64,000 nt of DNA from Sipunculus nudus. Taxonomy: Eukaryota; Annelida; Sipuncula; Golfingiida; Sipunculidae. This document shows, one piece after another, positions 5,015 to 64,000 of the stretch. The position numbers and the translations under genes are program-made. The stretch's first letter is position 1; each line of letters begins with the position of its first letter. Where the stretch lies: positions 75,864,643 through 75,928,642 of the forward strand of contig CM049307.1 of the NCBI GenBank assembly GCA_026874595.1. The letters run 5' to 3'. The notes beneath the pieces were generated by a model. That model was not told the DNA's origin and made no database searches. It saw nothing but the letters and a program-made list of their open reading frames with translations.

Positions 5015-8000
5015 CTGAAAAAAAAGAGTACAAAGTCTGAAGATCAATTACATAAGGCACAAGTAATCAGACACACTTTTTATGATGGTTCTGGTGTATC
5101 ATAAAATATCTTCTGATCTGCATTTAGTTGCAGCACATGATATTAATCTTTTAATTTGCTCATAATATCATACATTTTGCAAAAACATGTAAGGTATATT
5201 AACATCAAAGTAGTGTTCCTCTTTATTTAAAAGAAGGAAAATAAACTATAAATTTCCTCATGTAGAATATATTCACAAAGCATGAAAAGCCATAATGACA
5301 AGGAAACAAAGGCATGCTCTCACTGTTACTGGTAATTCTACTTCAGAAGTTGAGATCAACCTAACATCTATTATCATTTTAAAACATTCATGCAACTAAA
5401 CTGGAAGAAATTCTATTAGAGTAAAGTTATCCAAATTTTGACATCATGCCAAGCAGTGTATTAACTGATCTGTGTAACATATTTTGTTACAGCATTTTTT
5501 ACACTTTAACAATAAAGTAAAATTAAACAGAAGTCTGTTCACAAATTGACCTGAGATCAAAAGGGCATGACTTTGCAATAGCATACTATTAGCAGATACT
5601 TAATAAGGCCCCCCTCCCAAGGTCACATCCCAAAATGGTCAAATGTACTATTATTTTATCCAAAAAAAAAATACATTCACACAGCATGAATGACAGCAGA
5701 TAACCTTTCATCAGACAGTTTTTTAATACTGTTCAAGTAACACTATCATGTTTCCTGAATAAAGAAGCACAGGCATTTTATAATACCACATATTGAACAA
5801 AACACACATTTGAAATATCTACCCATCAAAAAGTATGGAATTGCTCAGAGCAATGGTTTGAACCAATATCAGAATATTCTACAAACCTTTTGTCATCTAC
5901 AGAAGCAGTCTCTGTTACTCCTAGTGAGTAACCTGGTAGGAAATGCAGCACCACCTGGTGGCCAGATCCTCCATACTTAATGCTCTCCTCTTCCACTGAC
6001 ACCGCAACAACCTCATCAACCTCAGCCGTTACTGGTCATAAATAACAATACAGATAATGTTTAAAACAGTCTTCAGTGTAACAATACTAAATGCTACTGA
6101 CATGTAATCACCTATTAATCCTCAACCATAAATGGTTAGTAAAAAACAGAAGAACAGGGTCACTCACTGGCCAAAATAAATGAAACATGGTAACTGAGTC
6201 AATGTCAACTGCTAGGTCATGGATGTCATAGAGTCACAAAGGCACCTACTGAGTCACAGAGTCACCACCAGAGTCAAAAAGGCACCTACTAAGTCGCAAA
6301 GTCACCAACTGAGTCACAAAGGCACCTGCTGAGTCAAATATTCATCAACAGAGTCACAAAGGCAACAACTAAGTCACAAAGTCTAAAACAGAGTCAGAAA
6401 GTCACCTGCTGAGTCACAAAGTCACCAACAGAGTCACAAAGGCACCTACTGAGTCATAATGTCACTAAATGAGTCACAAAGGCATCTGCTGAGTCAAAAA
6501 AGCACAAACAAAGTCACAAAGGCTCCAACTGAGTCACAAAGGCACCTACTGAGAGACAAAGTCACCCAACTGAATCAGAAAGTCTCAAACTAAGTAAAAA
6601 AGTCACCAACTAAGTCACAAAGTCACCAACAGAGTCACAAAGTCACCGAAAGAGTCAAAAAGGCAGCTAATGAATCACAAAGTCATCAACTGAGTCATAA
6701 AGGCACCTGCTATGTCACAAAGTCACCAACAGAGTCACAAAGGCACCTATTGAGTCACAAAGTCACCAACTGAGTTAGAAAGTCTCCAACTGAGTCACAA
6801 AGGCATCTACTGAGTGACAAAGTCACCAACTGAATCCGAAAGTCTCAAACAAATTAAAAAAGTCACCAACTAAGTCACAAAGTTACCAACAGAGTCACAA
6901 AGTCACCAACAGAGTCACAAAGTCACCGAAAGAGTCAAAAAGGCAGCTAATGAATCACAAAGTCATCAACTGAGTCATAAAGGCACCTGCTATGTCACAA
7001 AGTCACCAACAGAGTCACAAAGGCACCTATTGAGTCACAAAGTCACCAACTGAGTTAGAAAGTCTCCAACTGAGTCACAAAGGCATCTACTGAGTGACAA
7101 AGTCACCAACTGAATCCGAAAGTCTCAAACAAATTAAAAAAGTCACCAACTAAGTCACAAAGTCACCAACAGAGTCACAAAGTCACCAAAAGAGTCAAAA
7201 AGGTAGCTACTGAGTCACAAAGTCATCAACTGAGTCATAAAGGCACCTGCTGAGTCATGAATTCACCAACAGAGTCACAAAGGCAACTACTGGGTCACAA
7301 AGTCACAAACAGAGTCAGAAAGGCACCTGCTAAGTCACAAAGTCACCAACAGAATCACAAAGGCATCTGCTGAGTCACAAAGTCACCAACTATGTCAAAA
7401 AGTCACACAGTCATCTACAGAGTCACAAAGGCACCAACTGAGTCACAATGTCACCAACAGATTCACAAAAAGATACCTAGAAAAAAGGCACTCACGACCA
7501 TTTTCAAGCTATTTTTAAAACCAAATATTTCTTTGTATTAATCATTCATACAAAAAAGCTACTATAAAAGGGCAAAAAAAGCAAAACTATACACCAAGTA
7601 TTAGCATTTAATTTCTAGAAAGCTTAGAATCTTGATACTCACCAACTTGATGGGTCTTAGGGTCTGTGAAGAATTTTTGGATGAGACTAACTTTCTTGAT
7701 GGAAATTTTGCCCTCCTTTTTATCAATGACACACTCCTATAAACAAGACAGACATGAATTAAATTAAAGAAACTCAACATGCATATATCTACAATTTAAA
7801 AATTTTTTATTCACCATATGTTTCCTTACAATTAGGCCACACCATACAACTGACTGTTCAACACAAGAACCAAGTCATCAGTGTTACCACTAATAACCGC
7901 AAATTTTGGCTCAATTTTCTCCAACAAAATCATTATGTGTTAATAAATGATTTTCATTCATAAAGAGATAAATGAAAATGGATTGAACTTTGTGTTGTTC

Positions 8001-19539: not shown

Positions 19540-20721
19540 AGAATACGGGTAGTCGACAAGCGACTACGTGTATCCGCCAAAATCAGAGAAGGACGGGTGA
19601 AGTGAGGCATGGATTGAGTGGCAAGGGGATATAGAGTTACATATGTAAAATATTAGTATTGGATCTCTGCCACATAAACATGATTGTAGGTGGCGCCACC
19701 TGTTATTTGAACGAGAAACTATCCAAGATATATACACATGCAAAATTTCAAGTGGAAAAGTCAAACCACTGCAGAGATATGAGTGATTTTATCCCACAGC
19801 AGACAAACAGATGGACACTGTGCAAACATGGTTGCAGGTGGCGCCACCTTTTGTTGTGTATGTTATAAAGCTATCCCAGGGCTACATTTGTGTAAAAATT
19901 TTTTCCGGATCGGTCAAACAGTTCCCGAGATATGAGCTTGGATGTCTGCAGCGTTAACATGAATGTAGGTGGCGCCACCTGTCATAAAATCAAGGAAGCT
20001 ATCTAGGATGTATACGCATGCGGAATTTTAGGTGAATTAGTCAAACCATTGCAGAGATATGAGTGATTTTAACCCCAGGCAGATGAACAAATGGACACCG
20101 TGCAAACATGGTTGCAGGTGGCGCCACCTTTTGTTGTGTATGTTATAAAGCTATCCCAGGGCTACATTTGTGTAAATTTTTTTTCTGGATCGGTCAAACG
20201 GTTCCCGAGATATATGGGTTTATGTGTGGAGCGTTAACGTGAATGTAGGTGGCGCCACCTGTCATAAAATTGAGAAAGCTATCTAGGATGTATATGCATG
20301 CCAAATTTTAGGTGAATTAGTCAAACCACTGCAGAGATATGTGATTTTAACCCCAGGCAGATGAACAGATGGACACTGTGCAAACATGGTTGCAGGTGGC
20401 GCCACCTTTTGTTGTGTATGTTATAAAGCTATCCCAGGGCTACATTTGTGTAAAAAAATTTTCCGGATCGGTCAAACGGTTCCCGAGATATATGGGTTTA
20501 TGTGTGTAAACAGACGCACAAACGGACGCTGGGCAGAGACGAAAGGTCAGAGGTCAAGGTCACTTGGTTAGGCACCAGTTCACATGTGACCCGATAATTT
20601 GTGTAAGTTTCGGAAAAATCTGTCCAGTAGTCTCAGAGGAGTTCTCCGGAAACGAACGCGGCGGCGGCGGAACCCGGTCAAAAACATAGTATCCGCAAAA
20701 CTTCGTTTTGGCGGATACAAT
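19540..20721. mobile_element. Pearl/Helentron-like non-autonomous element with tandem core
   Basis: Begins AGAATACGGGTAG followed by a hairpin (TAGTCG-ACAAG-CGACTA) and ends TTTTGGCGGATACAAT. Short inverted termini TGTATCCGCCAAAA / TTTTGGCGGATACA are visible. The core is three units of about 279 bp, each holding two copies of the perfect 14-bp palindrome AGGTGGCGCCACCT (19688, 19836, 19967, 20116, 20247, 20394). A second copy is at 46454-47352, which fixes both ends. A hairpin near one end plus a tandem core recalls bivalve pearl-type elements; that assignment is inference. Confidence 0.75.
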
Positions 20722-38651: not shown

Positions 38652-41600
38652 GTCAGGTCATGTTTATATCAAATAAATTTAAGTATCTCATTTTGGTTAT
38701 TTAAAAAAAACACCTGAAAGACATTAACATGGATAACATGGTCACAAGCCCATCAATGCAAGTTCTAGTTGTACATAAAACACACATACTATAGTAGAAT
38801 ATTTGTCTAATTTGCAATGATAAATGAAATACCCTTGGATTTGATATCAGTCTGCAGTACAGTTAAATAAAAGAATAACCATTAAAATTGTAAGATTACT
38901 ATAAGATCTTCATATGAGATAATGTATTAAAATGCATGAATATGATAATATGACAGTAAATATCACCAGATGGTTAGGTGATATATTTGTAAGGTAAAAT
39001 GATAAGTTTACATCCTCTTTTTGAACACTAAGGTGCTTTTCTTTATTTCTGAACTTCTAAAGTGGTTCTAGTGCTTACTTGAATTTTTTGTCAATTTTAT
39101 TTCAGACTTGTCCATCTTGACCTTAAGGGTGCACCACCTAAACTGTCCTACTATGGAGAGGTAAAGGATTAATTTCTTTGTAATTATTTCATAATTGTAG
39201 GAATAGTAGGGACATTTTCAGCAAGGCTACCTTTCAATACATGCAGACTTTTGTCTCTGTGGGACCTGCTCCGTGCACATGGAGAGCCCCTTTCCATATG
39301 TCTGGATTTCCATTGGATGAACCATTTATTGTCCCTCACTTCCTTGGAAGGAACAGGGGACATTAATTTGGGTTTGTCTGTCTGGTTGTCTATCTGTCTG
39401 TCCCTCTGTCTGTCTGTGAGGTTTTTGTTTCTGTGCATAACTTTCCTAAATTTTATCCAGTTCATTCAAATTTCGGTCGCTGATTGCTCTCGTGCATACC
39501 TAGGTTTGATTTGGTTTTGGAGTGTCTGTCTGTAAATTTGTTCTCACCAGCTCAAAACAAAATTATCAAATTTTGGTCCTATTTCACAACCAAAATTATG
39601 ACATGTGGAGACATCTTCAGGGTACCATGAAAACTAAAACAGAGCCATTATGACATGTGGAGACATCTTCAGGCCAACATAAAAACTGAAACACATTGAT
39701 AAGGCAAGCATGAAATACAACAAGAGGCAAAAGTGGAGGATGTAAATTCCACGAATTAGCTTGTTTTGGTTAACACATGTATTAATAATCATAATTTCTT
39801 AAAATTTAGTGTGATATCTTATTCATTGTTCAGTTCAAACATTTATTCTAGCAAGGCTAGGCTTGAGGCTGATTATAATATAGTATCTCACCAGCCAGGC
39901 TTGCATGGTGATTATATCCTGCTACACTTTACCTGGAGTTGGCTTCCGGGCCGTTTCTTGATAAAAAATTGTCATATATTCTTTTTATTCATCCTTAAAG
40001 CACTTTCAGCTCTTTTATCTTTTATAAAGACAAGGGTTCATACCAGCAACAAGCCCCTGCAGAAATCCAACAGTGCTGGAGTTAAAAAATCTGCCTGTGG
40101 GGCTGGCACCGGCCCATATGGGAAGGGGGAAAATAATATTAGACCAGTTGAATTTTTTTCTGTGTGGGACTCATGTGGGGACCCGCGTGTATGGAAAGGC
40201 ACCTTGACAGTTTAAGTAAGGAGAAACTTGAATGATTACAGATGTTATGATAATTTAGATATAAGAGATTAAGTCTTATCTTATTAAATAAGCAATATGT
40301 GAAAAACATGTTAATATTTGGTAATGTTTAGAACATTTTTATCCTTAAATCTTAATTGACAAAAATATTGAATTAAAGTTTATGATGCAGTAAAACCCAG
40401 GTACTGAAGCAGTGATTTATTATAATTTGAGTGATGACTTTTTTGGGGGAAAGCATGCAATGCTGTAACAAATATCCATTTTGAATTTGCCAGCTTTCAT
40501 GACCATATTTAGTCATGGAGGTAGGCAGGCATAGACAATATATATGTAGTTTAATAGTTTACTGTTACCAGTGAAACAAAGACAATCTGTGGTAAGATAT
40601 TGTGTAATTTCTGCCATAAGATCTTCCCACTGCTCAAGAAGTGGGGAGCGACAGGCCTTCTGATTGAGTATGAAGATATGTTTCCTTACTGGGGTGAACT
40701 GAAGGAGCTGGCAGCACCAAACGCTTACAGGTCAGTAAAGCACAACACTAAATGCTTACAGGTCAGTACAGCACAACACTATAAATGCTTATAGGTCAGT
40801 ACAGCGCAACACCAAATGTTGACATGTCAGTCCAACACAACACCAAATGTTTACAGGTCAGTACAACACAACACCAAATGCTTACACATCAGTTCAAGGC
40901 ACCACCAAATGCTTAGAGGTCAGTCCAACACAACACCAAATGTTTACAGATCAGTACAACACAACACCAAATGCTTACATGTCAGTTCAAGGCAACACCA
41001 AATGCTTACAGGTCAGAACAGCAAAACATCAACACTTATAACATATACAGTCTAACCTCTTTCATTCGCCCCTTGATTATCCGCCAACCTCACCCACAGC
41101 CAACAAATGACAAAGTCCCCATTTCCTTACTACTTATTTACCTGGTTCATTTGCCAGCCTCGCTTTCCACCATCTGCCAGGTTATACCCCAATTAGCCAC
41201 ATTCCCTTGATCATATGCCAACTTCATGACTCCAACTTAAGACAAGTCGGGAATATTTCATCAAGCCAGTGTGTTATCTCTTGGGCTCAGCTGACCTGGC
41301 TGCCTCTGTGTTTATGACATGTCACGCCTCACTGCTTATGGATTATGTACAGGGAGCCACTGATTATGACTTACCATAATTAGTTGTTTGGGGACAGCTG
41401 TCATCAGCCGTGTGACCGGTGCTGATGTTACACCTAGATAGACAACAGCGAACCTATTGTGATTGTCGTCAGTGACGCAGTTTGCTGGACAAAGGGTGCC
41501 TGGGATTCTGTAAGCACCACCATCAGCAATTGTTAGAAACACACAGGCGATATACCCAGTGGTGACCAGCCAAATGAAACAGACGGTCCAGAAGTAATGA

Positions 41601-52200: not shown

Positions 52201-55200
52201 GCCAATCTCATCACACACAGACTGTTCATTTTGTTTAAATCCATGTATTTATGTCATGTGGGGGACCACTAAAATATTTGAAATACAATCAACAGGGTCA
52301 CCTGGCAGCAAGTCATATGCACTAAAGTTTTGCAAAGGGCATTTTGCAACTACTGACCTTTAAAATTTTACACAAATGCAACCAGCCGCCTTGGGTTACC
52401 TGTTTTTATACACCCATCATATGACGGGCGTATTATGGTATACCTACCGGATGTTCATCTGTCTGTCTGTCAGTCATGCCTTCCGTCCATTTACTTTCAG
52501 TGTTGCCCAATAATTTAAGGGGGCTTTCGTGGATTTTCACAAAACTCACCTTAACTACTCACCAACAGATTATCTCGAGCAAGTTCCATTATGGGCTACA
52601 TCCATGCATATTTAATAAGGTCACGGGTCACACAGCCCCTGTGAAGTGTCGCTGCCATTACTTATAAAGAATATGAAGGATTCTGATAAAACTCATCAGA
52701 TATGTTAATCAATAGAATATCTCACCTAAGTTCGATTTCCAGCAAAATCAATGCATATATAATCAGGTCAGAGGTTACCGCACTTTGGAGGCACCTTTGT
52801 GACTTACCAAAACTCTTATGGATTTTCATGAAACTCATACATATTTACCAATAGAGTTACTCTTCAGAATTACCATCTCATCGAAATTCATGCATATTTA
52901 ATGAGGTCAGAGGTCACCAGATACACGACGGGCTTATTATGCACATTTACAGTGCTCTCATTTCCATTTGTCAACATTGCTGTGATGACAAACGGCTTGT
53001 TCATAAGCAAACTTATACATCCAACACAGAGCCATTATAAGAACTTTCTGAAAATGAATTACCTAAAGTGCATTAATACTCACACAGAGTAAGCAAGAAA
53101 TTACATAAATTCTATATAAAATTTAGGTGAATAGCTGGCTTTAAATGTTATAAGTTCAGGATTCATTTCCATATTACTTTACATCACAAAACTCTTGTCA
53201 ATTTTCATTGTTTTCATATGTTGTAAGTTCCACTATTGATATCATCATCTATATATTAAACATTCTGGAGTAATGTCCACATTACCTTATATTACAAGTT
53301 ACAGGTTATTTTCCATATTATCATTTATTCATTTACATACGGGTTCTTGATTAATGTCCCTGTTCTCATGTATTACATGATCTTGGTTAATATCTGATAT
53401 TTCTTATATTACAATTTCTGGATTATTGTCCATATTTTCATACAGTACTTGATTTCCTGGTCTTAATTAATTTCCTCTTTCTGATGTATTTCCAGTTCAA
53501 GATCAATTTTTATATTTTCATATATTATAATTGATAGATTTATTTCCATATTTTTAGGGTCTTTCACAGAAGAGGTTCACAAAACTGTATCCATAGATCT
53601 TGGCTTCTCAGAACCACTGCCATTAAACCCCTTTCAGAGGTAAGTTTTTATGTGGTGAAGGTACACATGCAATATGGCCCATAATCCCATGTTCATTCAT
53701 GCATAAATGATATAATTTTTTGTGAATATTCCTTGATAAGAATCCTGAATCCAGGTCATGCGCTAGATCTACACCAAAATCTGATCGATTCTTCCTTGGC
53801 CCATTCCTGAAATGCCTTGAAAATTTCCTGAGATTACATTCATAACTTCTTGAGTAATATTGTGGACAAACACACACATAATTGGGGATGAATTCACAAA
53901 GGGGGATAAAGACATACCCTCCTGGCAGAGGCAAATACAACCTGTAGAGGCATGTGCCAACAAGCATGTCTTAGCATTCACACATTTTAAAATATAATAT
54001 CCAAATATCTAAGCAAATTGGTATATAAAATAACACATATGCAAACACATTTTATTAGCATAAACATTTCTAAGTTTACAAATTTTCCATATGTGGATTA
54101 TTCATCAGGTGTATACATATTTGTTCTTTTTTAGTGTGGGTATCATTCCACTCTTATTTTTAGCGTGGGGACCATATACTGATATTTCTAATTTTCAGTG
54201 TTTCTATCAACCCTTATTGGTATATATTTTTTTCAAATATTTCATTGTTGGGTCAGCTTTTGTATTTATATTTCTTCTTTTTCACTGGATGAATAATTTT
54301 TCCCTTCTCCAGGGGAGACGTGTAGTTTTATTACGTAAACATAATTGTGAGCTGTTTCTGTATTAATGAGAATTTTCTCTGTTAAAGTTTATATGCCAGA
54401 GTAAGCCAACCGAAAATTTTCCCTTATTGGGCCTATTATCGCCCAAACCCGCCTTGTTCCCATGTATCTAGGTCACACTTCCGTTTCCTGTACTCACTTT
54501 TTTCTTCTGGCGTCCGCCATGATGGATGTATAATCACGCTCTGCACGATTCGTCCACTGTTTTGGTTTGTACAGTCGGGTTTGCCAACTGAATTGTAAGT
54601 AGTGATTCTTTTTCCCTTCCCATCATGGAGACCCCTCTTATTGGCTACTTGTGGTTAATTAATCCCCACTTGGGATTCTCACCCCACTTGTTTCACCTGC
54701 TGTTCCCACAATGGCCGGGACCCTGCTGATTCCTACTACTTTTGTCAGACATGATCGTCTGACAAATGGGCCATGTTCAATGCATGGTCCCATTCCCCGG
54801 TTGTTGGGCTACCTCCACGCAGGAGACGCAACCAGACGGTCCTAAGTTTCGTCGGCTACAGCCTCGGACTTCCCCGGCGTCGGCGTCTGGTTTCTAATTG
54901 AATCCAGCCGCCCTTCAATCGCCTTCCTACACACCGCTGGTGTGTATGGACTTCACCATTAATACGGTTGAACTTTAAGGGGAACATCACGCCGCCGTCT
55001 CGGGGTCGATCTCCACCACTACCGGGGCCCCGGTACCGCCGGGGTCCACTCAGGTGTGGTCCCCCGGCACCCTCTGGACCTCCCAAGGGTACTGGGAGTC
55101 ATGTTTTGATCGTTTGATCCCTTTTCCGGATCATCCGGCCGTTCCTTAGGTGCCCATGTGTCTTGAGTCCGGGCTGGTACAACTGTTCGCGGTTGGGAAA

Positions 55201-58200
55201 ACCTTATTTTCTTCATCCGCCCTGCTAACTGACTGTCCACTGTCAGATTAAGAGGGGCTAGGCCGTCCGGCGGCGGGGATCGTGAATGATTTACACTGGC
55301 CTCCTCGCCGTCTCAACGGATCCGACCACACTAAATGATATCTGGCAAGCGTCAGCCCTTGACTGTGCTGAACGCCAGCAAGTTAATTGGTGTATTGTAG
55401 AAATTGTATTTTACTGTGCCTCTCGGCCTGTATCCATTCATTACGTACCTTGTAACCCGAACTCCTCCAGTCACCCTGCAACTGTTCTACCCTCAGCCTT
55501 ACACCGATCCGATCAAACTCTCGTCTTTTGCTGGTTCCAAAACCGCACGGACAGGGGCGCCCGATTATCCATTTCAAGCGCCTCTATTTGGTCATTAACT
55601 CGCCGCCCTTTCGCATGTTCACTATTCATGCGGTTCTCCTCATTATCAGTCGGAGGGATTGGGTGTTCAAAATTTGCCTTAAGGTTGCTTATTGTCACGT
55701 TCCGTTCCATCCGTCGTCCCTACCGTTTCTTAGATACGCCTCCCGGAACCGTATGTATATATTACGTGCCCTTCCGTTCGGGATCAATGTGGGCCCTGGA
55801 TTTTTACGCTGCGGGGACTAGCGAAGTCGTCCACACGGTCACTTATTACCTCCGCTCCCAGGGCCTATCTGTGCTCCCTTACCTAGACGATTGGCTTGTC
55901 CATGCGGCCGATCGCTCTCTCTTACTGGCGCACCGCTCCCGGGTTCTCGATTACTCCGGAACCTTGGCTTTCTTGTCTATACAGTGAAGTCCCAGCTCAC
56001 TCCCACCCAGTCCTTCCAGTTTCTGGGTGTGACTCTTGAGTTTGCGTCAGGGACTGCGTCTCTACCGCGCGCATTTGCTCTCAAGCTCAGGACGCCGATT
56101 CGTTTCTTTCTTGCGTCTTGCTGTATCGCTTCTCGTGGCGCTGCCTCTCTTCACGGCACTCTCATCTGGGCCACCAATTTTGTTCCTTTTGGTCGATTTT
56201 ATCTTCGTCCAGTTCAGTCTCTCCTGAGCGCTCCGGGCCTTCTCCATCTCCATTCGGTTCGTCCCGTATCAACGTACGTGGTGGACCCTTCACCCCTGAC
56301 TGGACCTTTCCTTTCTCCTTCCAGCAGTTCCTTTCTCTCAGGGGATCGATTGTATGGTGTTTACTGACACATCTCTACTCAATTGGGGTGCCCATATGGC
56401 TGATCTCCACGCCTAGGGCGTCTGGTCTCCGTCGGCACGCCTCCTTCATATCAATACTTTGTGCCGTCCGTCGCGCGATCTCCCATTGGTCCCCGCCGCT
56501 TCCTATGCCGTCACATACTCGTCATGACCGACCCCTCCACGGTGGTGGCATATGTAAACAGGCGGGGCGGTACTCAGTCTCCCTCACTGATGCAGGAGAC
56601 CTACCTCTTGTTCGATCTCTGTATCACGCTCCGGGACTCGCTCCATGCGTCTTATCTTCCGGGCGTATTGAACTTTCTCACAGACGCCCTTTCACGTCGC
56701 CCCACGTCTCCACCTCCACCCGTCGTCCTTCCACTCTCCGTCCTACAGTGTCTCTTCCCTCGACTGGGGTGTCCGGATATCGATCTCTTTGCTTTCCCTC
56801 CCCCCAGTCCTCGTTCCTACCGGGACCCGTCTACTTCGCCCTCGCGACCGTCTAACTGACCTCCCGCCACACGTTTGGTCTCACCGGTTCTCTCCGCGTT
56901 TCCGGTGCCCTGTCTCATCTGCCGTATCCTCTTCCGTCTGTCCTGTACGGACCAGACTGATCTCCTCCTCATCCTCCCATTCCTCCTGCGACTCCCTGGT
57001 TTCCCCTGTGGCGCTCGCTTTTCTCATGACCCCCCCTTCTTCTAACGCTCCCGATCGATCTCCTGTCCTTCCCACATGCCCATCGTCCAATTCGGTCATG
57101 CCATCTGTGCGCCTGCGTACTCTCATTGGTCATCTCCAGGATAAGGACCTTTCAGGTCTGGCTGCTCTCCTTGCCTTGGCTCCACGTCGCCGTTCTTCGG
57201 ACCTCATCTATGACTCCCGGTGACGTCTCTTCACCGATTGGGTGTCTGACTCTGGAATCTCCTTTAGATCCGTCAATTGCGGCGATTTTGGAATTCTTCG
57301 GTTATTTCCTACGGGATGAACGTTTATCCTAACCGTCTCTTCGTGGCTATCGTGCCGCCCTGCTATCGGTACTCCGTCCATGGGGTCACGATCGTGTCCT
57401 CCGTCATCCGTTGGTGACGGTTTTATCATGGGGGTACATGGCCACGCTTCTCGTCCTCGCTACGTCACTACTTCCTGGCATCTGGACGTTGTCTTCCTTC
57501 ACCTCCACAGGCTTCGTACGGCGCATCTTCTACCTTTGTCTTGGTAAATGGTTTCCCCCTTGCTATTGCATCTGCTGGTCGCCGCTCTGAGCTTTATGCC
57601 CTAGTGGGCGACTCGCCATTTACACAACATTGTGGCTGAAGATGCTTCGGCCACCTTACCTTTCCCTCCGGAATTTATAAGCAGACCCGTCATTTGATGA
57701 TCCTCTGTTAACCTGGCCCGTTCCGGCCCTCCCTCAAGGACAGTACCGTTCAGGGCTCACATTTGCCCTGTTCATGCTTTACGTTACTCTCTTCAAGCTA
57801 CTCATTCTGAAAAAGAGGGGGGGGGGGGGCGCAAGAAGTTGTTTATTTGTGTATAAACTTTAATAGAGAAAATTCTCATTAATACAGAAAAGCTCACAAC
57901 AGTTTATGACCCGTCATTCGATGATCCTCCGTTAACCTGGCCCGTTCCGGCCCTCCCTCAAGGACAGTACCGTTCCGGGCTCACTATTGCCCTGTTCGTG
58001 CTTTACATTACTCTCTTCAAGCTACTCATTCTAAAAAAGAGGGGGGGGGGGCGCAAGAAGTTATTTATTTCAACGAACATCACCATTTCAAACAAAGAAA
58101 TTAGCCCTATCACTATTAGTGCATGGCTAAAAACTACCATTATCTCAGCATATGAATCAGCTTCTCCATCAACCTTAGACCAGCTTCACGTCAAAGCTCA

Positions 58201-61166
58201 TGACATCAGGGCCCTTTCTACATCATTGGGCCATTTATAGTGGATATCCCCAAACCAACTGGTCAAGAAGGCTATTGGGAGTTGCCTTCTACATTCACCT
58301 GCTTATATCTCAAGGATGTCCAATTACAAGCTTCGGGCCTTTAATTCTTGGGCCCTGTGAGTATGCGAGTGCGGTCCTACAATTCTCCAGTCCGTCTTGC
58401 CTCCTGCATCTGTTCCGGCAACGACGTCTTCGGCTGCTCCATCACTGCTGTGATGTTCTCCTCATTCCATCGTTCCAGGTAGGTATCCCCTCCCCAAGGT
58501 TTATCTGTTATATTCTCATTAATACAGAAACAGCTCACAATTATGTTTACATAATAAACCCCCCCCCCCCCCCCCCATTCCCTCCCTGTGAATGGTGGTT
58601 TTGTTAGTAAACTGTTGTGAGCTTTTCTGTATTACAAACAACGCTCCCTCCCAGTCCACTTCGTTCTGCCATCCAAAAAAGTGATTACAGGAAACGGAAG
58701 TGTGACCTGGATACACGGGAACGAGGCGGGATTGGGCGATATGGGCCCAATAAGGGAAAATTTTCGGTTGGCTTACTCTGGCGTATAAACTTTAATAGAG
58801 AAAATTCTCATTAATACAGAAAAGCTCACAACAGTTTACTAACAAAACCACCATTCACAGGGAGGGAATGGGGGGGTTTTCATTATGTCTCCCCCCTCCA
58901 CAGGAGACGTTTTCATTGCCATCTTCTGTCATCGTTGGTCAGTTGTCTTCTGTAGGATATCTTGTGAAAGCGATAACTTATGAAGGGCTGCATATTTTCC
59001 ACCAAAATTTGAAACACTCATTGTTTATCCCAAAATCTTGGAGGAGGTAAAAACCCTGTGACCTTGACCTTCACCTTAAAGGTCAAATCTGCTAAAGTGT
59101 GAAATTTTTGTGAACCTCATAACTTTTGAAGTTTTTATCCTTTTGTCCTGAAATTTGGTGCACCAATTGTTCCTGGCAAGTTTTTGGAAGAGTTTGAAAT
59201 CCAGTGACCTTGACCAGAAACTTCAAGGTCAAAACAGCCAAATTAAAGTTATTGTCTTATGAACACAATAACTTTTGAAGGGCTGCATGTTATCCTCCAA
59301 AATTTGAAACAACAATTGTTCCTACCAAGATCTCTGATAAGTTTGAAACCCAGTGACCTTGACCATGTCTTCAAGGTCAAATCAACCGAATTATAGTTAT
59401 TGTTTGGTGTACACCATAACTCGTGAAGGGCTCTTGTGAACACAATAACTTTTGAAGGGCTGCATATTTTCTTATAAATCTGAAACGTTCATTGTTCCTA
59501 CCAAAACCTTGTTGAAGAACAAAATCCAGTGACCTTAACCTTGATCTTCAAGGTCAAGTTTATGCAATTCTAGGATAATTGTCACCCCCATAACTTTGGA
59601 AGTACTGAAGAATTTTACTTCAAATATGACACACCAGTACTTTCGGCCAAAATCTCATCAGAGTCTGAAAAACAGTTACCTTGACCAGGATCTTCAAGGT
59701 CAAATCTGTTGAAATCTAGAATCATTGTTTTTAGATAGTGCATATTTTACCCCTAATGTTTTGGGATAGCCCATAGGGGGGAGACATATATCTGTTTTTG
59801 CACTGCAAAAACAAAGCCATTCTAGTTTTACCTTGTTTTCAGTGGGGATTATTCCTTTTATTGCATTTCTTGCCTCCAGTGTGGAGATCATATATTGTAT
59901 GATTTATATTCCTTGTTTTGTATGGGGATCATTCCTTTGAATGTATTTCATGTTTTCCAGTGTTGGGAACTAGGGATCATACCTTGTATTTATATTCCTA
60001 GTTTTCTGTGAGGATCATTCCTTTGAATGAATCTCATGTTTTTCAGTGTGGGGATCATCCCTCAGTGCTCATTCCCTGGTGACCAGGTGTACATAGGAGC
60101 CCAGGTTTTACTTTGTACAAAGGCAGATTACAAGCTATTCCTGAAAAATGAAAGGTAAGAAAAAAGTACACCAAACAGTAAAATGAGTAATGATGTCATT
60201 AGGCAGGTTTTTTTTACCCAGACTTTTTTTCACAGTAAAATACAAATAGTGTAAACATTTTAATTTATAGAAGTGTCTACATATAGAAAAATAAGGGTTG
60301 TATATTGAAAAAAATGTGTGTTTTTCAGCAGGTGTGCAAAATTGTTCTTAATTGCTACAATATTTATATGTCAGGCACCACAGTATTCATGCATGGCCTT
60401 GTTTATAAAAAAAAATCACCGATTAAACAATACCTCACAATCTCAGTATACCCACATGTGATGATACATACCTTCCAAATTATGAATTTTTATTCAGTGC
60501 ATAACCCTTATTTCAGTGCCCTGTTGACTATTATATTCCTATGTTTTCCTATATTTTCCTATTGAAAAAGTTTCTTGTATAATTTCCTATATTTTCCAGC
60601 ATTAGACTGTGATCTCCTATATTTTCCTATATGTTTGTATTGCTATTCTGTGTTTCTGATGTTACTGTTATTATTAAATATTTTTGTTATGTAGACCTAA
60701 TAGTATTGAAAACACAGTTGTGCTGTGAAAATTCATATATTTTCCTTAAATTATTCAATGAAACTTCCTGTAATCTCCCTCCTTTTTGTCTTAACTTTTC
60801 CTATAAAATTCCAATATTTCTTTAAGCGTTGGAGCTCTGTTTAGTTTTAATATATAAATATTGTCCTCTATGACACTAATATAAATGTAAATAATATAAG
60901 TATATTCCTGTGTAAAAAAATCCTAGATTAGGGCTAACTCACTTAATGGCATCATTATATATATATTTATATATTTGAAAAAATTCTTTTATGGTTTAGT
61001 GTTATTCTTTGATTATAAAGTTTTTGCTTTGTTTAAATTAAACCTGACCCAGATCCTTTATTTCTTTCATTTTTTCCAGATTAGGAGGATGGATGACAGA
61101 TTATCATATCAAACATAACTACACAAACCCAGCCCACGTCAAGCACTTCCTACCACAAGGCAAACA
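38603..61166 (+). CDS. HEXD: Hexosaminidase D (GH20), thirteen coding exons, 3' end outside window
   Basis: Hexosaminidase D is a nucleocytoplasmic beta-N-acetylhexosaminidase of glycoside hydrolase family 20, with a preference for galactosaminides in mammals. Coding exons: 38620-38651, 39106-39160, 40621-40730, 43359-43446, 44193-44271, 44809-44894, 45888-46071, 48262-48330, 50968-51163, 51973-52055, 53558-53639, 60047-60154, 61080-61166, all GT/AG, 1259 nt in one frame. Landmarks: [12 protein letters not shown] (residues 12-23), [12 protein letters not shown] (41-52), [10 protein letters not shown], the catalytic Asp-Glu pair in HIGADE (D149-E150), [22 protein letters not shown] (247-259), [18 protein letters not shown]. 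An in-frame TGA precedes the first ATG (38620); a second ATG (38632) is possible. Human HEXD runs about 60 residues further; the rest should lie past 64000, unless translation stops at the TGA at 61168-61170. Confidence 0.94.
39106..39160 (+). CDS. HEXD: HEXD coding exon 2
   Basis: Acceptor TTTATTTCAG, donor GAGAG|GTAAAG. Encodes [19 protein letters not shown], first strand of the GH20 barrel. Confidence 0.92.
39355..39765 (-). repeat. Dispersed repeat B, second copy
   Basis: Inverted relative to 13490-13985 (GTCTGTCTGTCCCTCTGTC tract, GGTTTTGGAGTGTCTG, GGAATTTACATCC), but the internal GACATGTGGAGACATCT pair reads in the same direction as at 13.6 kb. Confidence 0.72.
40621..40730 (+). CDS. 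HEXD: HEXD coding exon 3
   Basis: Acceptor TGCCATAAG, donor TACAG|GTCAGT. Encodes [20 protein letters not shown] then [16 protein letters not shown]. Its last 20 bases and donor seed the minisatellite that follows. Confidence 0.93.
40711..41035 (+). repeat. 31-bp minisatellite seeded from HEXD exon 3 donor
   Basis: Ten donor-like words occur at 40731 (the real donor), 40762, 40795, 40826, 40857, 40888, 40919, 40950, 40981 and 41012: spacing 31 bp, once 33. Each is preceded by AAATG(C/T)TTACA, a copy of the exon end CAAACGCTTACAG. Eight keep GT; two have changed to AT (40888, 40950). The array begins inside coding sequence and runs into the intron until the Tigger element at 41048. Confidence 0.95.
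41048..42165 (+). mobile_element. Tigger/pogo-type transposon with transposase C-terminal remnant
   Basis: Same terminal sequence as 16449-17712 (CAGTCTAACCTCTTTCATT), with TA at both outer edges (41046-41047, 42166-42167). A plus-strand frame around 41655-41797 reads [17 protein letters not shown], the acidic segment after DE-x-D-IVE typical of Tigger transposase tails, then a frameshifted [15 protein letters not shown]. The catalytic domain is missing, so the copy cannot move itself. Located in HEXD intron 3. Confidence 0.85.
42187..43175. mobile_element. Second pogo-like element, different family
   Basis: Left end CAGTAAAACCCCGCTAATG; right end reverse-complemented AGTGAAATCCCGCATGACG; TA on both sides. 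Many GGTCGTGTTAGCGGG-like words inside each end. A 100-bp internal segment with CTCAACGGGCCG..GGTCGTCA is duplicated (about 42815-42900 and 42910-42995). It starts only 22 bp after the preceding Tigger copy, in a TATATA tract. Confidence 0.75.
43174..43222. repeat. (TA)n microsatellite
   Basis: About 24 TA dinucleotides at the right border of the pogo-like element. Confidence 0.92.
43359..43446 (+). CDS. HEXD: HEXD coding exon 4
   Basis: Acceptor TTCTTTCAG, donor TTGAG|GTGCAG. Encodes [17 protein letters not shown] then [13 protein letters not shown]. Confidence 0.94.
44193..44271 (+). CDS. HEXD: HEXD coding exon 5
   Basis: Acceptor GATTTTTAG, donor CCCAG|GTAAGC. Encodes [20 protein letters not shown] and LCPMNP. 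Confidence 0.92.
44809..44894 (+). CDS. HEXD: HEXD coding exon 6 with catalytic Asp-Glu
   Basis: Acceptor ATCTACAG, donor CGAG|GTCAGT. Encodes [19 protein letters not shown] and [10 protein letters not shown]; the DE pair is the GH20 polarising Asp and acid/base Glu. Confidence 0.94.
45888..46071 (+). CDS. HEXD: HEXD coding exon 7
   Basis: Acceptor AATTTCAG, donor AAAAG|GTGAGC. Encodes [36 protein letters not shown] and [22 protein letters not shown] is the conserved barrel strand. Confidence 0.92.
46085..46290 (+). repeat. 19-20 bp minisatellite just after HEXD exon 7
   Basis: About ten degenerate units close to TTTGGTCAATGTTGGTCCA (variants TTTGGCC, TCGGTCAAAG). It starts about 15 bp after the exon 7 donor, but its unit does not resemble the exon end. 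Confidence 0.85.
46454..47352. mobile_element. Pearl/Helentron-like element, second copy
   Basis: Shares AGAATACGGGTAG-T-GACAAGCGACTACGTGTATCC at the start and GCGGATACAAT at the end with 19540-20721. It carries four diverged forms of the AGGTGGCGCCACCT palindrome (near 46596, 46745, 46871, 47030). Located in HEXD intron 7. Confidence 0.78.
47755..47972. mobile_element. Short MITE with ACCAGTGTTA ends
   Basis: ACCAGTGTTA at 47757 is inverted at the right (TAACACTGGT, 47954-47963). CCACCTGTCTATTAAGAC-like words repeat inside. The exact borders are uncertain. Confidence 0.6.
48262..48330 (+). CDS. HEXD: HEXD coding exon 8
   Basis: Acceptor CTCTCTACAG, donor GAGG|GTAAGT. Encodes [20 protein letters not shown] then LPE. 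Confidence 0.9.
48370..49330 (+). repeat. AAGGTCA-rich tandem repeat element, ~150-bp units
   Basis: Starts TTTAGCTCAGCTGACTTTCA and a GTCTGTCGTCCTCATGCTG stretch, then about five units of 150-160 bp holding CCTACCAA-AGGGGAAGAA, TTGAGGTCA-AAGGTCAAAG and CATTTCAAGC-AACCTTTCA. This is a style common in mollusc genomes. In HEXD intron 8. Confidence 0.75.
49335..50960. other. HEXD intron 8, remainder
   Basis: A diverged two-unit repeat around 50060-50300 (ATTTCAGAC-CGTCAGAA-TCCA words). ORF 49805-49996 has no recognisable product. Confidence 0.4.
50968..51163 (+). CDS. HEXD: HEXD coding exon 9
   Basis: Acceptor TATTTAG, donor AAAG|GTAACA. Encodes [20 protein letters not shown] and GYCLTGWQ; highly similar to the human [13 protein letters not shown] segment. 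Confidence 0.94.
51973..52055 (+). CDS. HEXD: HEXD coding exon 10
   Basis: Acceptor GTTGACAG, donor AACAG|GTAACA. Encodes [19 protein letters not shown] then LCLLTLKT, end of the catalytic barrel. Confidence 0.93.
52395..52945 (+). repeat. Interspersed repeat with CATATGACGGGCG head
   Basis: Opens TACACCCATCATATGACGGG, then CTGTCTGTCTGTCAGTC, followed by two or three loose units each with TGCATATTTAAT-AGGTCA. No coding capacity. In HEXD intron 10. Confidence 0.6.
53558..53639 (+). CDS. HEXD: HEXD coding exon 11
   Basis: Acceptor ATTTTTAG, donor CAGAG|GTAAGT. Encodes [20 protein letters not shown] then LPLNPFQR (human counterpart GGFDEDVKAKVENLLG). Confidence 0.88.
53655..53945 (+). repeat. 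Dispersed repeat A, fourth copy
   Basis: TTGTGAATATTCCTTGAT, CTGAATCCAGGTCATG, CAAACACACACATAATTGG and ATACCCTCCTGGCAGAGGCA match the family in reverse orientation to 14265-14601. Confidence 0.7.
54130..54230 (+). repeat. Left remnant of splice-acceptor-like repeats
   Basis: Three degenerate units at 54131 (TTTTTTAGTGTGGGTATCAT), 54161 (TTTTTAGCGTGGGGACCATA) and 54193 (TTTTCAGTGTTTCTATCA). They resemble the exon 12 acceptor TTTTTCAG|TGTGGGGATCAT and lie left of the DIRS element. Confidence 0.6.
55528..56330 (+). pseudogene. DIRS reverse transcriptase, frameshifted
   Basis: Motifs in order: [18 protein letters not shown] (55528 on), [15 protein letters not shown] (about 55760), [15 protein letters not shown] with the YLDD active-site form typical of DIRS (about 55875), and [15 protein letters not shown] (about 56010). 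These sit in three different frames, so at least two frameshifts separate them. Part of the DIRS element. Confidence 0.85.
56340..56860 (+). pseudogene. DIRS RNase H domain, frameshifted
   Basis: [20 protein letters not shown] start in one frame near 56360, then in another frame [20 protein letters not shown] and [16 protein letters not shown], the usual DIRS RNase H blocks. The frame changes near 56460. Confidence 0.82.
57195..58330 (+). pseudogene. DIRS tyrosine recombinase, broken by duplication and stops
   Basis: N-terminal [17 protein letters not shown] at 57210, a GYR-ALLS...[13 protein letters not shown] stretch, [14 protein letters not shown] at about 57570 (first catalytic Arg region) and [14 protein letters not shown] at about 58185 (the H-x-x-R box). 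The two catalytic boxes are split by a duplicated 150-bp segment and ITR fragment. I cannot identify the catalytic tyrosine with confidence. Confidence 0.78.
57690..58060 (+). repeat. Internal direct duplication in the DIRS element
   Basis: About 57690-57842 and 57908-58060 are nearly identical (both GATGATCCTC-GTTAACCTGG through CTACTCATTCT-AAAAAGAGG plus a G-tract). Between them is a 70-bp piece of the right ITR (AATTCTCATTAATACAGAAA). Confidence 0.85.
58510..58634. repeat. DIRS internal complementary region
   Basis: 58511-58551 complements the outer left ITR (TTATGTTTACATAATAAA against TTTTATTACGTAAACATAA). After a 17-C tract, 58567-58634 complements the outer right end (CCCTCCCTGTGAATGGTGG against 58855-58872). 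With 58813-58882 it can form a 70-bp-arm hairpin. Confidence 0.85.
58885..59787. mobile_element. Non-autonomous element with 13-bp TIRs and AAGGTCAA tandem core
   Basis: ATGTCTCCCCCCT at 58885-58897 is exactly inverted at 59775-59787. The core has about five units of 130-150 bp with CCAGTGACCTTGACC, TTCAAGGTCAAA and CATAACTTTTGAAG. Its left end lies eight bases past the DIRS right end. Confidence 0.78.
59838..60060 (+). repeat. ~40-bp degenerate repeats copying the HEXD exon 12 acceptor
   Basis: Units start at about 59838, 59878, 59916, 59955, 60002 and 60042. Each has a T-rich tract followed by (C)AGTGTGGGGATCAT-like sequence, then CCTTTGAATG-ATTTCATG. The last unit is the real acceptor plus the first bases of exon 12. 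Confidence 0.8.
60047..60154 (+). CDS. HEXD: HEXD coding exon 12
   Basis: Acceptor GTTTTTCAG, donor AAAG|GTAAGA. Encodes [20 protein letters not shown] then [15 protein letters not shown]. Its acceptor region is echoed by upstream degenerate copies. Confidence 0.86.
60155..61079. other. HEXD intron 12
   Basis: T-rich with TATATTTTCCTA repeats around 60535-60630; no exon seen. Confidence 0.5.
61080..61166 (+). CDS. HEXD: HEXD coding exon 13
   Basis: Acceptor TTTTTCCAG, donor AAACA|GTGAGT. Encodes [20 protein letters not shown] then KHFLPQGK, matching human GW..YH followed by HPVMVQH. Without splicing it would stop at TGA 61168-61170. The exon end seeds the terminal minisatellite. Confidence 0.85.
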
Positions 61167-64000
61167 GTGAGTCACAACATAACCACACAAACCCCACCCA
61201 CATCAAGCACTTCCTACCACAAGGCAAACAGTGAGTCACTCAACATAACCAAACAAACCCCACCCACTTCAAGCACTTCCTACCACAAGGTAAACAGTTA
61301 GTCACTCAAGATAACTACACAAACCCCACCCACTTCAAACACTTCCTACCACAAGGCAAACAGTAAGTCACTCAAGATAACTACACAAACCCGGCACAAT
61401 TCAAACACTTCCTACCACAAGGGAAACAGTGAGTCACTCAACATAACCAAACAAACCCCACCCACTTCAAACACTTCCTACAACAAGGTAAACAGTAAGT
61501 CACTCAAGATAACTACACAAACCCGGCACAATTCAAACAGTTCCTACCACAAGGCAAACAGTGAGTCACTCAACATAACCAAACAAACCCCACCCACTTC
61601 AAACACTTCCTACCACAAGGTTAACAGTAAGTCACTCAAGATAACTACACAAACCCGGCACAATTCAAACAGTTCCTACCACAAGGTTAACAGTAAGTCA
61701 CTCAAGATAACTACATAAACCCGGCACAATTCAAACAATTCCTACCACAAGGTAAACAGTAAGTCACTCAAGATAACTACACAAACCCGGCACAATTCAA
61801 ACACTTCCTACCACAAGGTTAACAGTAAGTCACTCAAGATAACTACACAAACCCGGCACAATTCAAACAGTTCCTACCACAAGGTTAACAGTAAGTCACT
61901 CAAGATAACTGCACAAACCCGGCACAATTCAAACACTTCCTACCACAAGGCAAACAGTAAGTCACTCAAGATAACTGCACAAACCCGGCACAATTCAAAC
62001 AGTTCCTACCACAAGGCAAACAGTAAGTCACTCAAGATAACTGCACAAACCCGGCACAATTCAAACACTTCCTACCACAAGGCAAACAGTCACTCAAGAT
62101 AACTACACAAACCCAGCCCACATCAAGCACTTCCTACCACAAGGCAAACAGTGAGTCACTCAACATAACCAAACAAACCCCACCCACTTCAAGCACTTCC
62201 TACCACAAGGTAAACAGTTAGTCACTCAAGATAACAACACAAACCCCACCCACTTCAAACACTTCCTACCACAAGGCAAACAGTAAGTCACTCAAGATAA
62301 CTACACAAACCCAGCACAATTCAAACACTTCCTACCACAAGGCAAACAGTGAGTCACTCAACATAACCAAACAAACCCCACCCACTTCAAACACTTCCTA
62401 CCACAAGGTAAACAGTAAGTCACTCAAGATAACTACACAAACCCGGCACAATTCAAACACTTCCTACCACAAGGTTAACAGTAAGTCACTCAAGATAACT
62501 ACACAAACCCGGCACAATTCAAACAATTCCTACCACAAGGTAAACAGTAAGTCACTCAAGATAACTACACAAACCCGGCACAATTCAAACACTTCCTACC
62601 ACAAGGTTAACAGTAAGTCACTCAAGATAACTACACAAACCCAGCACAATTCAAACAGTTCCTACCATAAGGTTAACAGTAGGTCACTCAAGATAACTGC
62701 ACAAACCCGGCACAATTCAAACACTTCCTACCACAAGGCAAACAGTAAGTCACTCAAGATAACTGCACAAACCCGGCACAATTCAAACAGTTCCTACCAC
62801 AAGGCAAACAGTAAGTCACTCAAGATAACTGCACAAACCCGGCACAATTCAAACACTTCCTACCACAAGGCAAACAGTCACTCAAGATAACTACACAAAC
62901 CCGGCACAATACAAACAGTTCCTACCACAAGGTTAACAGTAAGTCACTCAAGATAACTGCACACACCCGGCACAATTCAAACACTTCCTACCACAAGGCA
63001 AACAGTCCCTCAAGATAACTACACAAACCCGGCACAATTCAAACAGTTCCTGCCACAAGGCAAACAGTAAGTCACTCAAGATAACTGCACAAACCCGGCA
63101 CAATTCAAACACTTCCTACCACAAGGCAAACAGTCACTCAAGATAACTACACAAACCCGGCACAATTCAAACAGTTCCTACCACGAGGTTAACAGCAAGT
63201 CAGTCAATATAACTACATGCACCTTGCCTACTTAAACACTTCCTACCACAAGGTTAACAGTAAGTCACTCAAGATAACTACACAAATCCCGCACAATTCA
63301 AACAGTTCCTACCACAAGTTTAACAGTAAGTCACTCAAGATAACTACACAAACCCGGCACAATTCAAACACTTCCTACCACAAGGCAAACAGTCACTCAA
63401 GATAACTACACAAACCCGGCACAATTCAAACACTTCCTACCACGAGGTTAACAGCAAGTCAATCAATATAACTACATGCACCTTGCCTACTTAAACACTT
63501 CCTACCACAAGGTTAACAGTAAGTCACTCAAGATAACTACACAAATCCTGCACAATTCAAACAGTTCCTACCACAAGGTTAACAGTAAGTCACTCAAGAT
63601 AACTACACAAACCTGGCACAATTCAAACAATTCCTACCACAAGGTTATCAGTAAATCACTCAAGATAACTACACAGACCCTGCCCACTTCAAACATTTCC
63701 TAACACAAAACAAACAGTGAGTCACTCAAGATAACTACATAAACTCCACCCATGTCAAACACTTCCTACCACAAGGCAAGCAGTAAGTCACTCAAGATAA
63801 CTACACAAACCCCACCAATGTAAAACCCTTCCTACTCCATGACAAACTGTAAATCACTCAACATAACTACACAAACCCCACCAATGTAAAACCCTTCCTA
63901 CTCCATGACAAACTGTAAATCACTCAACATAACACAAACCCCACCAATGTAAAACCCTTCCTACTCCATGACAAACTGTAAATCACTCAACATTACACAA
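61110..64000 (+). repeat. 66-bp minisatellite seeded from HEXD exon 13 end and donor
   Basis: More than 40 units. The first is the exon itself (ACACAAACCCAGCCCACGTC through CTACCACAAGGCAAACA) plus donor GTGAGTCAC. Donor words follow at 61231, 61297, 61363, 61429 and on, mostly GTAAGT, GTGAGT or GTTAGT. Some units lack the donor through a 4-bp loss (CAGTCACTC, for example near 62088). A higher-order period of about 920 bp is visible (61231 and 62151 onward). The array reaches the window edge, with the last units shorter and more diverged. Confidence 0.96.

Follow-up and report, generated by a model that had tools for sequence, protein, structure and literature searches.

Tandem repeats that span the boundary between an exon and an intron are known from lancelets and from human, and the array described here, a minisatellite with a unit of 66 bp, starts at such a boundary in the gene HEXD of the sipunculan Sipunculus nudus. 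It reaches the end of a stretch of 64,000 nucleotides, hereafter the window (assembly GCA_026874595.1, contig CM049307.1, positions 75,864,643 to 75,928,642 of the forward strand), which is C2:75864643-75928642 in the genome of 1.43 Gb and 153 contigs that was searched. The lancelet arrays were reportedly given a name over twenty years ago. These mirages are minisatellite-like tandem duplications of exon/intron boundaries, found in Adh3, globin genes, troponin C and PGBD5; they occur at both types of boundary, are unstable in length and leave normal splicing undisturbed in the reported cases (PMC3087553, PMC3902484), and one suggestion is that introns arise from them (PMC3087553). The HEXD array resembles them in its boundary-spanning repeats, in a unit within their range of 10-160 bp, in the splice signals of many units and in having the real exon as terminal copy (PMC3087553, PMC3902484). 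It differs from them in its 47 copies over 3.1 kb and in belonging to a 1.43-Gb genome where limited searches, not a full survey, gave 15 cases of arrays at the edge of a 5' splice site (donor).

For the human CBS gene, a paper by Lievers in 2001 is said to deal with the effect of a variable number of tandem repeats (VNTR). This 31-bp VNTR, c.1444_1467+7(16_21), has 16-21 copies (PMC2630376) and is placed at exon 13-intron 13 (PMC1395315); by its name the unit holds 24 exon and 7 intron nucleotides, an exon edge plus donor as in HEXD (PMC2630376), but it is human, polymorphic, genotyped in people and shorter in its unit. A 25-bp VNTR next to exon 18 of human ABCA7 likewise begins at a donor and has a GT in each unit, with retention of one unit seen in RNA (2 +/- 1%), but its unit contains no coding exon sequence, and longer arrays correlate with more skipping of exon 19 and lower expression (PMC5954066). 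In human segmental-duplication genes, internal tandem repeats located at exon-intron boundaries change splicing or create introns; they too are boundary minisatellites but belong to recent paralogs, with an average of four copies of a 30-bp unit (PMC2812944). In the literature searched, as far as its accessible text goes, no such array was found in HEXD and no genome-wide survey beyond the one of human segmental duplications (PMC2812944). The type of array is already known and the HEXD array joins it; its recurrence within one genome is less expected.

To judge from its anatomy the HEXD array is of the mirage type, and it is best explained as a minisatellite seeded by the edge of an exon and amplified by slippage or unequal exchange, with a probability of about 0.8. 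Tandem Repeats Finder (TRF) gave a period of 66 and 44.0 copies in the window (61115-63990) and, with downstream DNA added, 47.0 copies ending at 64189, 189 bp past the window, over ~3.1 kb. A wrap-around parse divided these into 47 near-complete units, one exonic and 46 intronic, and the more than 40 tandem copies of the HEXD exon end plus donor claimed in an earlier note on this DNA are thereby real. The first unit consists of the last ~52 nt of the exon followed by GTGAGTCAC, and 55 exon nucleotides can be aligned with a later copy, 51 of them identical. As in mirages, the repeat spans the exon-intron boundary, the authentic boundary is one terminal copy and the splice signals are kept in many, not all, units: among the 46 intronic copies GTRAGT is found in 29, a 4-bp deletion of the donor in five, TGTAAAT in five and other changes in seven. 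Unit lengths of 62, 64 and 65 bp are also present.

The gene was mapped by tblastn with a human HEXD protein query that was not a database copy. It gave a collinear match to exons of the window from 39106 onward, and when joined these exons contain a glycosyl hydrolase family 20 (GH20) domain (Pfam, E=3e-13). The exon at the array edge is the penultimate coding exon (Table 1); the number 13 given to it in the earlier note is unconfirmed, with at least three exons unplaced (the first, one near 49.9 kb and one before 61080). The last exon lies beyond the window, from 66849 onward in coordinates extended past its end, matches residues 419-467 of the human query (E=9e-6) and has 73 codons with a stop at 67068 (extended), leaving an intron of 5682 bp (~5.7 kb). 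The donor at 61167 and the acceptor before 66849 are both in phase 2, and since the phases match and HEXD homology continues across the intron into the last exon, this donor and the exon that it terminates, up to the exon's very end, are, on sequence grounds, native to HEXD.

When scored with an approximate weight matrix and compared with ten other HEXD donors, the authentic donor (ACA/GTGAGT, the slash marking the boundary) proved to be complete on its intron side and poor on its exon side, with no G at -1 and no A at -2. Its score of 2.8 is exceeded by eight of the ten and is barely above that of its copies in the array, 2.8 or 2.5. The pairing with U1 amounts to -5.4 kcal/mol, compared with -5.4 to -11.0 for the ten others, and some copies also contain AAG/GTAAAC, which pairs better (-6.8) than the authentic site. 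The claim that most copies keep a consensus-grade donor holds for the GTRAGT count given above, but the grade applies to the intron side alone, the exon side being ACA and the score 2.8.

The history of the array is less simple than growth outwards from the junction. Divergence from the exon copy increases along the array (Spearman 0.63), and as a trend the copies nearest the exon are indeed the most exon-like, as the earlier note had stated, but only two changes separate the internal unit at 62099 from the exon copy, against five for the adjacent unit at 61179. Among the 35 pairs of units spaced 12 units apart, 7 differ by no more than one change, which points to a block duplication; this and the copy at 62099 contradict simple outward growth. 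In mirages concerted evolution acts inside the array and leaves out the boundary units (PMC3087553); a check for this in HEXD found the block duplication and divergent distal units, yet exon-like states occur inside the array as well.

Table 1. Features of HEXD and of its two donor-edge arrays, in window coordinates.
Feature	Position	Strand	Basis
Second HEXD exon with a repeated edge, seeding the 31-bp array; ends in ...GCACCAAACGCTTACAG/GTCAGT	40621..40730	+	tblastn with the human HEXD query (59% identity); donor; acceptor end by inspection
Second donor-edge minisatellite, 31 bp x about 10, unrelated to the 66-bp unit	40715..41032	+	TRF and parse
Penultimate HEXD coding exon, ending in phase 2 (...HFLPQGK CA/)	61080..61166	+	Collinearity with residues 392-414 of the human HEXD query
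66-bp minisatellite, first copy = exon end + donor	61115..64000, on to 64189 outside the window	+	TRF, wrap-around parse
Authentic 5' splice site GTGAGT (ACA/GTGAGT)	61167..61172	+	Phase and homology fit to acceptor CAG/A before 66849 (extended coordinates)
In-frame TGA, met at once on intron retention or use of a decoy donor	61168..61170	+	Translation
62-bp unit, donor lost by 4-bp deletion (others start at 62825, 62953, 63081, 63340)	62037..62098	+	Unit table
Internal copy, 2 changes from exon copy, heading the duplicated block	62099..62164	+	Distance table
Distal subfamily, degenerate TGTAAAT instead of donor	63797..64000	+	Unit table

A genome search with the first 291 bp reported 14 matches, all in this array (C2:75925752-75928831); the search skips very common words, so that the counts are lower bounds; they argue strongly against a moderate repeat family but have no force against one of extreme abundance. 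With these 14 matches at one locus, a dispersed satellite is not supported for the 66-bp unit. As the 66-bp unit was reported nowhere else, the exon most likely seeded the array, and the observation named in the earlier note as refuting such a seed, the same unit at many unrelated loci, came out negative. The unit had no match in a phage collection, as expected. The array would have started with a tandem duplication covering the 3' end of the coding exon, the donor and some 12-14 nt of the intron, after which the intron-side copy, free of coding constraint, may have multiplied through slippage or unequal exchange, with about a dozen units duplicated as a block. Retained as coding sequence, the exon copy would form the hard left edge of the array, and splicing presumably still takes place mostly at the first donor. 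Across that donor the exon frame reads CAG TGA, and leaky use of any later donor would yield one and the same product, a HEXD that ends after Gln and has no last exon. In such transcripts the TGA would precede the new junction by ~60 nt or more, and the outcome would be a shortened protein or nonsense-mediated decay; by the usual rule, a stop more than 50-55 nt upstream of a junction marks a transcript for decay. The mechanism of this array is most likely neutral, and since similar arrays recur in the genome their cause probably lies in the genome at large and is not peculiar to HEXD. As a whole, the interpretation given in the earlier note is partly supported.

Some points weigh against an exon-seeded, neutrally amplified array. 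The penultimate exon alone matches the human HEXD query weakly (8/23 identical, E=0.37), and its identity is carried by collinearity and phase and not by its own alignment. The ABCA7 VNTR alters splicing, so harmlessness of the HEXD array cannot be assumed, and the over-representation of donor edges reported below, if real, is unexplained by plain random slippage.

Two of the 11 donors and none of the 12 acceptors located in HEXD have repeated edges, the second donor being that of the exon at the start of a 31-bp array (Table 1); in this comparison the query for the donor at 61167 was set one base too early. The 31-bp unit was reported at one other locus (C1:41519488-41520379, ~72% identical, 30 copies), and there the array begins within the donor edge of an exon that is RNase H-like (Pfam RT_RNaseH at E=1e-4, which falls short of the curated cut-off). 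The two 31-bp consensi are alike at 25 of 31 bases, and the exons are unrelated.

A genome search for three consecutive CAGGTNAGT donors gave 2264 matches compared with 545 for the reversed pattern. The first array among the matches listed has a period of 53 bp (C1:1774968-1793163, matches over ~18 kb) and extends from the donor of an open-frame exon ending in ...YIPISYEQMY(R)/, which has no Pfam match and which we take to be CACUL1-like; the second lies near a condensin exon (Pfam Cnd2, E=3e-9) and has no demonstrable exon edge. An exon-shaped pattern (TTTCAG, 90-120 nt, AGGTRAGT, 20-50 nt, AGGTRAGT) gave 54 matches compared with 13 for its reversed control, grouped by eye into 19 loci, nine of which were exon-like and were examined, the other ten looking like TTTCAG-containing arrays. 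All nine carried tandem donor arrays: seven (L052-L058) have an open-frame exon end inside the repeat, for just 8 nt in L052, while the array of L059 begins at the donor itself with no exon part and L060 has no open frame. A second version with 60-90 nt gave 54 matches compared with 28 reversed, or 23 loci after grouping, of which three had already been counted, 12 were examined and eight were left out. Exon-edge arrays were found in four of the 12 (L061, L067, L068, L072); five (L064, L065, L066, L070, L071) have arrays without a convincing exon and three (L062, L063, L069) a second donor and no array. The 15 donor-edge cases are these four, L052-L058, the 53-bp array, the RNase H-like exon and the two in HEXD, with 8 to 55 exon nucleotides matched by later copies; except where a family match is cited, their coding status is given by open frames and resemblance judged by eye. 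This recurrence, the second HEXD array and the existing name in print had all been overlooked in the earlier note.

At C13:15640225-15649890 a 30-bp family was seen in whose listed units an acceptor-like motif (TTTCAG or TTACAG) directly abuts GTGAGT (AG/GT), a likeness to a zero-length exon or a recursive splice site, and similar-looking sequences were listed at C4:62536139, C4:62671437 and C17:53639015. In the same assembly a COX1 search gave 11 matches, ten of them in long open frames (C60-C62, C66, C72, C74, C75, C89, C123), as well as a 51-residue COX1 fragment on C5; from the two COX1 frames read (C60, C123), which look bacterial, the assembly probably contains bacterial contigs. A scan with the bacterial protein gave no close match, the best being 58%.

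Why boundaries are hit may have an answer that is compatible with the exon-seeded array: in a minisatellite-rich genome arrays would arise anywhere and some would fall over exon ends where a duplicated donor is harmless, with no process directed at boundaries. This is a serious contender, although we hold it to be somewhat less than an even bet. Minisatellites are frequent, with eight arrays of the 20-70 bp class (at least three copies) in 113.7 kb, but both of those within the HEXD span start at donors, and with the first taken as given, uniform placement would put at least one of the remaining seven at a donor with a probability of 0.033. A single-donor exon pattern gave 1373 matches compared with 1193 reversed, and by difference ~180 would be true exons; an alternative estimate, from ~100 listed matches judged by eye, is ~350 if a quarter are coding. 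Six array loci (L052-L056, L058) have their first donor within the range of this pattern. With 180-350 exons, 0.25-1.0 would be expected by random placement (P 6e-4 or less), which speaks against chance, while if all 1373 matches were exons the expectation of 1.9 to 3.9 would make six weakly surprising (P 0.014 to 0.19); most of the matches are, however, probably background, as the reversed control suggests. The array density was taken from the 113.7 kb that include the HEXD finding itself. An over-representation of donor edges compared with random placement is probable, with an uncertain denominator.

An acceptor control pattern gave four matches compared with ten reversed, among them an acceptor-edge array of 36 bp and 2.4 copies (L075) and an array of 42 bp and three copies adjoining an acceptor (L076), the other two showing no repeat by eye. 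A bias of donors over acceptors, with six donor-edge arrays against one clear acceptor-edge and one adjoining array (p 0.06 to 0.14), is not claimed. A CA after a donor of the GTRAGT type was seen in 5 of 16 arrays and in 5 of 65 background sites (p=0.006), a post hoc comparison that was not used.

Maintenance of the arrays for a function, with U1 sites holding U1 snRNP against premature polyadenylation or with HEXD tuned by decoy splicing and decay, appears improbable. A function would fit the donor core kept intact by 29 of the 46 intronic copies and by the majority of copies in several other arrays, and ABCA7 is an example of a boundary VNTR able to alter splicing and expression, but in the 66-bp array the donor columns show no more conservation than the other columns (p=0.87, or 0.63 when the deletion class is left out) and five copies share a propagated 4-bp deletion that removes the donor. 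Fifteen arrays were given to a test across arrays, with the first three near-complete copies left out, and 14 were usable (L072 was dropped): the donor was less variable than the rest of the unit in six, equal in one and more variable in seven (Wilcoxon p=0.35). All arrays except the HEXD and RNase H cases had been found by requiring intact donors, and donor retention in them is not independent evidence. Selection on donor function, put forward as one of two options in the earlier note, was tested twice, at the HEXD array and across the 14, and found no support.

Capture of a pre-existing satellite, inserted at the boundary and supplying both exon end and donor, is equally hard to credit. The resemblance between the 31-bp arrays of HEXD and of the RNase H-like exon, the strongest among the 14 units compared, counts in its favour, but the remaining unit pairs score lower, the exon ends encode, in frame, stretches of different proteins and the 66-bp unit has no other reported locus. 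Introner-type mobile introns are related introns with shared sequence at many genes. When the 14 unit consensi were compared in this respect, the two 31-bp ones alone stood out, and in a comparison of whole loci confined to this pair, the 3.3-kb RNase H locus (L015) matched nothing, outside its array, in the HEXD intron of the 31-bp array. That the array is itself coding, an alternative frame being open for up to 222 aa (62222-62890) and translatable as a 22-residue repeat (the unit is 3x22), was rejected as virtually impossible, since the exon frame meets a TGA at once, units of 62, 64 and 65 bp shift the frame, and a unit whose length is a multiple of three, if it has no stops in one frame, will keep that frame open as a matter of course.

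Other repeats were seen in the window and its extension. An element of ~4.5 kb in a HEXD intron (54312-58876) has inverted ends, with 82-nt arms that are 96% complementary (54355-54436 and 58741-58822), and long open frames; it is presumably DIRS-like, with no Pfam match for two of its frames at E 0.1. Two similar-looking tandem arrays of period 280 are present at 19677-20506 and, in extended coordinates, at 64632-66024, the latter in the same HEXD intron downstream of the 66-bp array. A 20-bp minisatellite with 61.5 copies of GAGTCACAAAGTCACCAACT is located at 6231-7469.

The HEXD array is of value because it leads into a genome in which arrays of this type recur. Boundary-spanning arrays probe how the spliceosome chooses one donor when dozens are nearly identical, and it has been proposed that new introns arise through them (PMC3087553). 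Many arrays with edges inside coding exons in one genome could extend the handful of lancelet and human cases to a statistical set, in which it could be asked whether donors are hotspots, whether donors and acceptors differ in tolerance and at what distance a decoy is ignored. It is a tentative and rather doubtful idea that exon-intron boundaries, above all donors, are birth hotspots of minisatellites, with some 2-3% of donors of the one tested kind carrying an array seeded by the exon edge, several-fold over random. If true, a boundary-directed process, for example breakage in co-transcriptional splicing, would keep generating and refreshing decoy splice sites in many genes, from which new introns and alternative exons could be drawn at any time.

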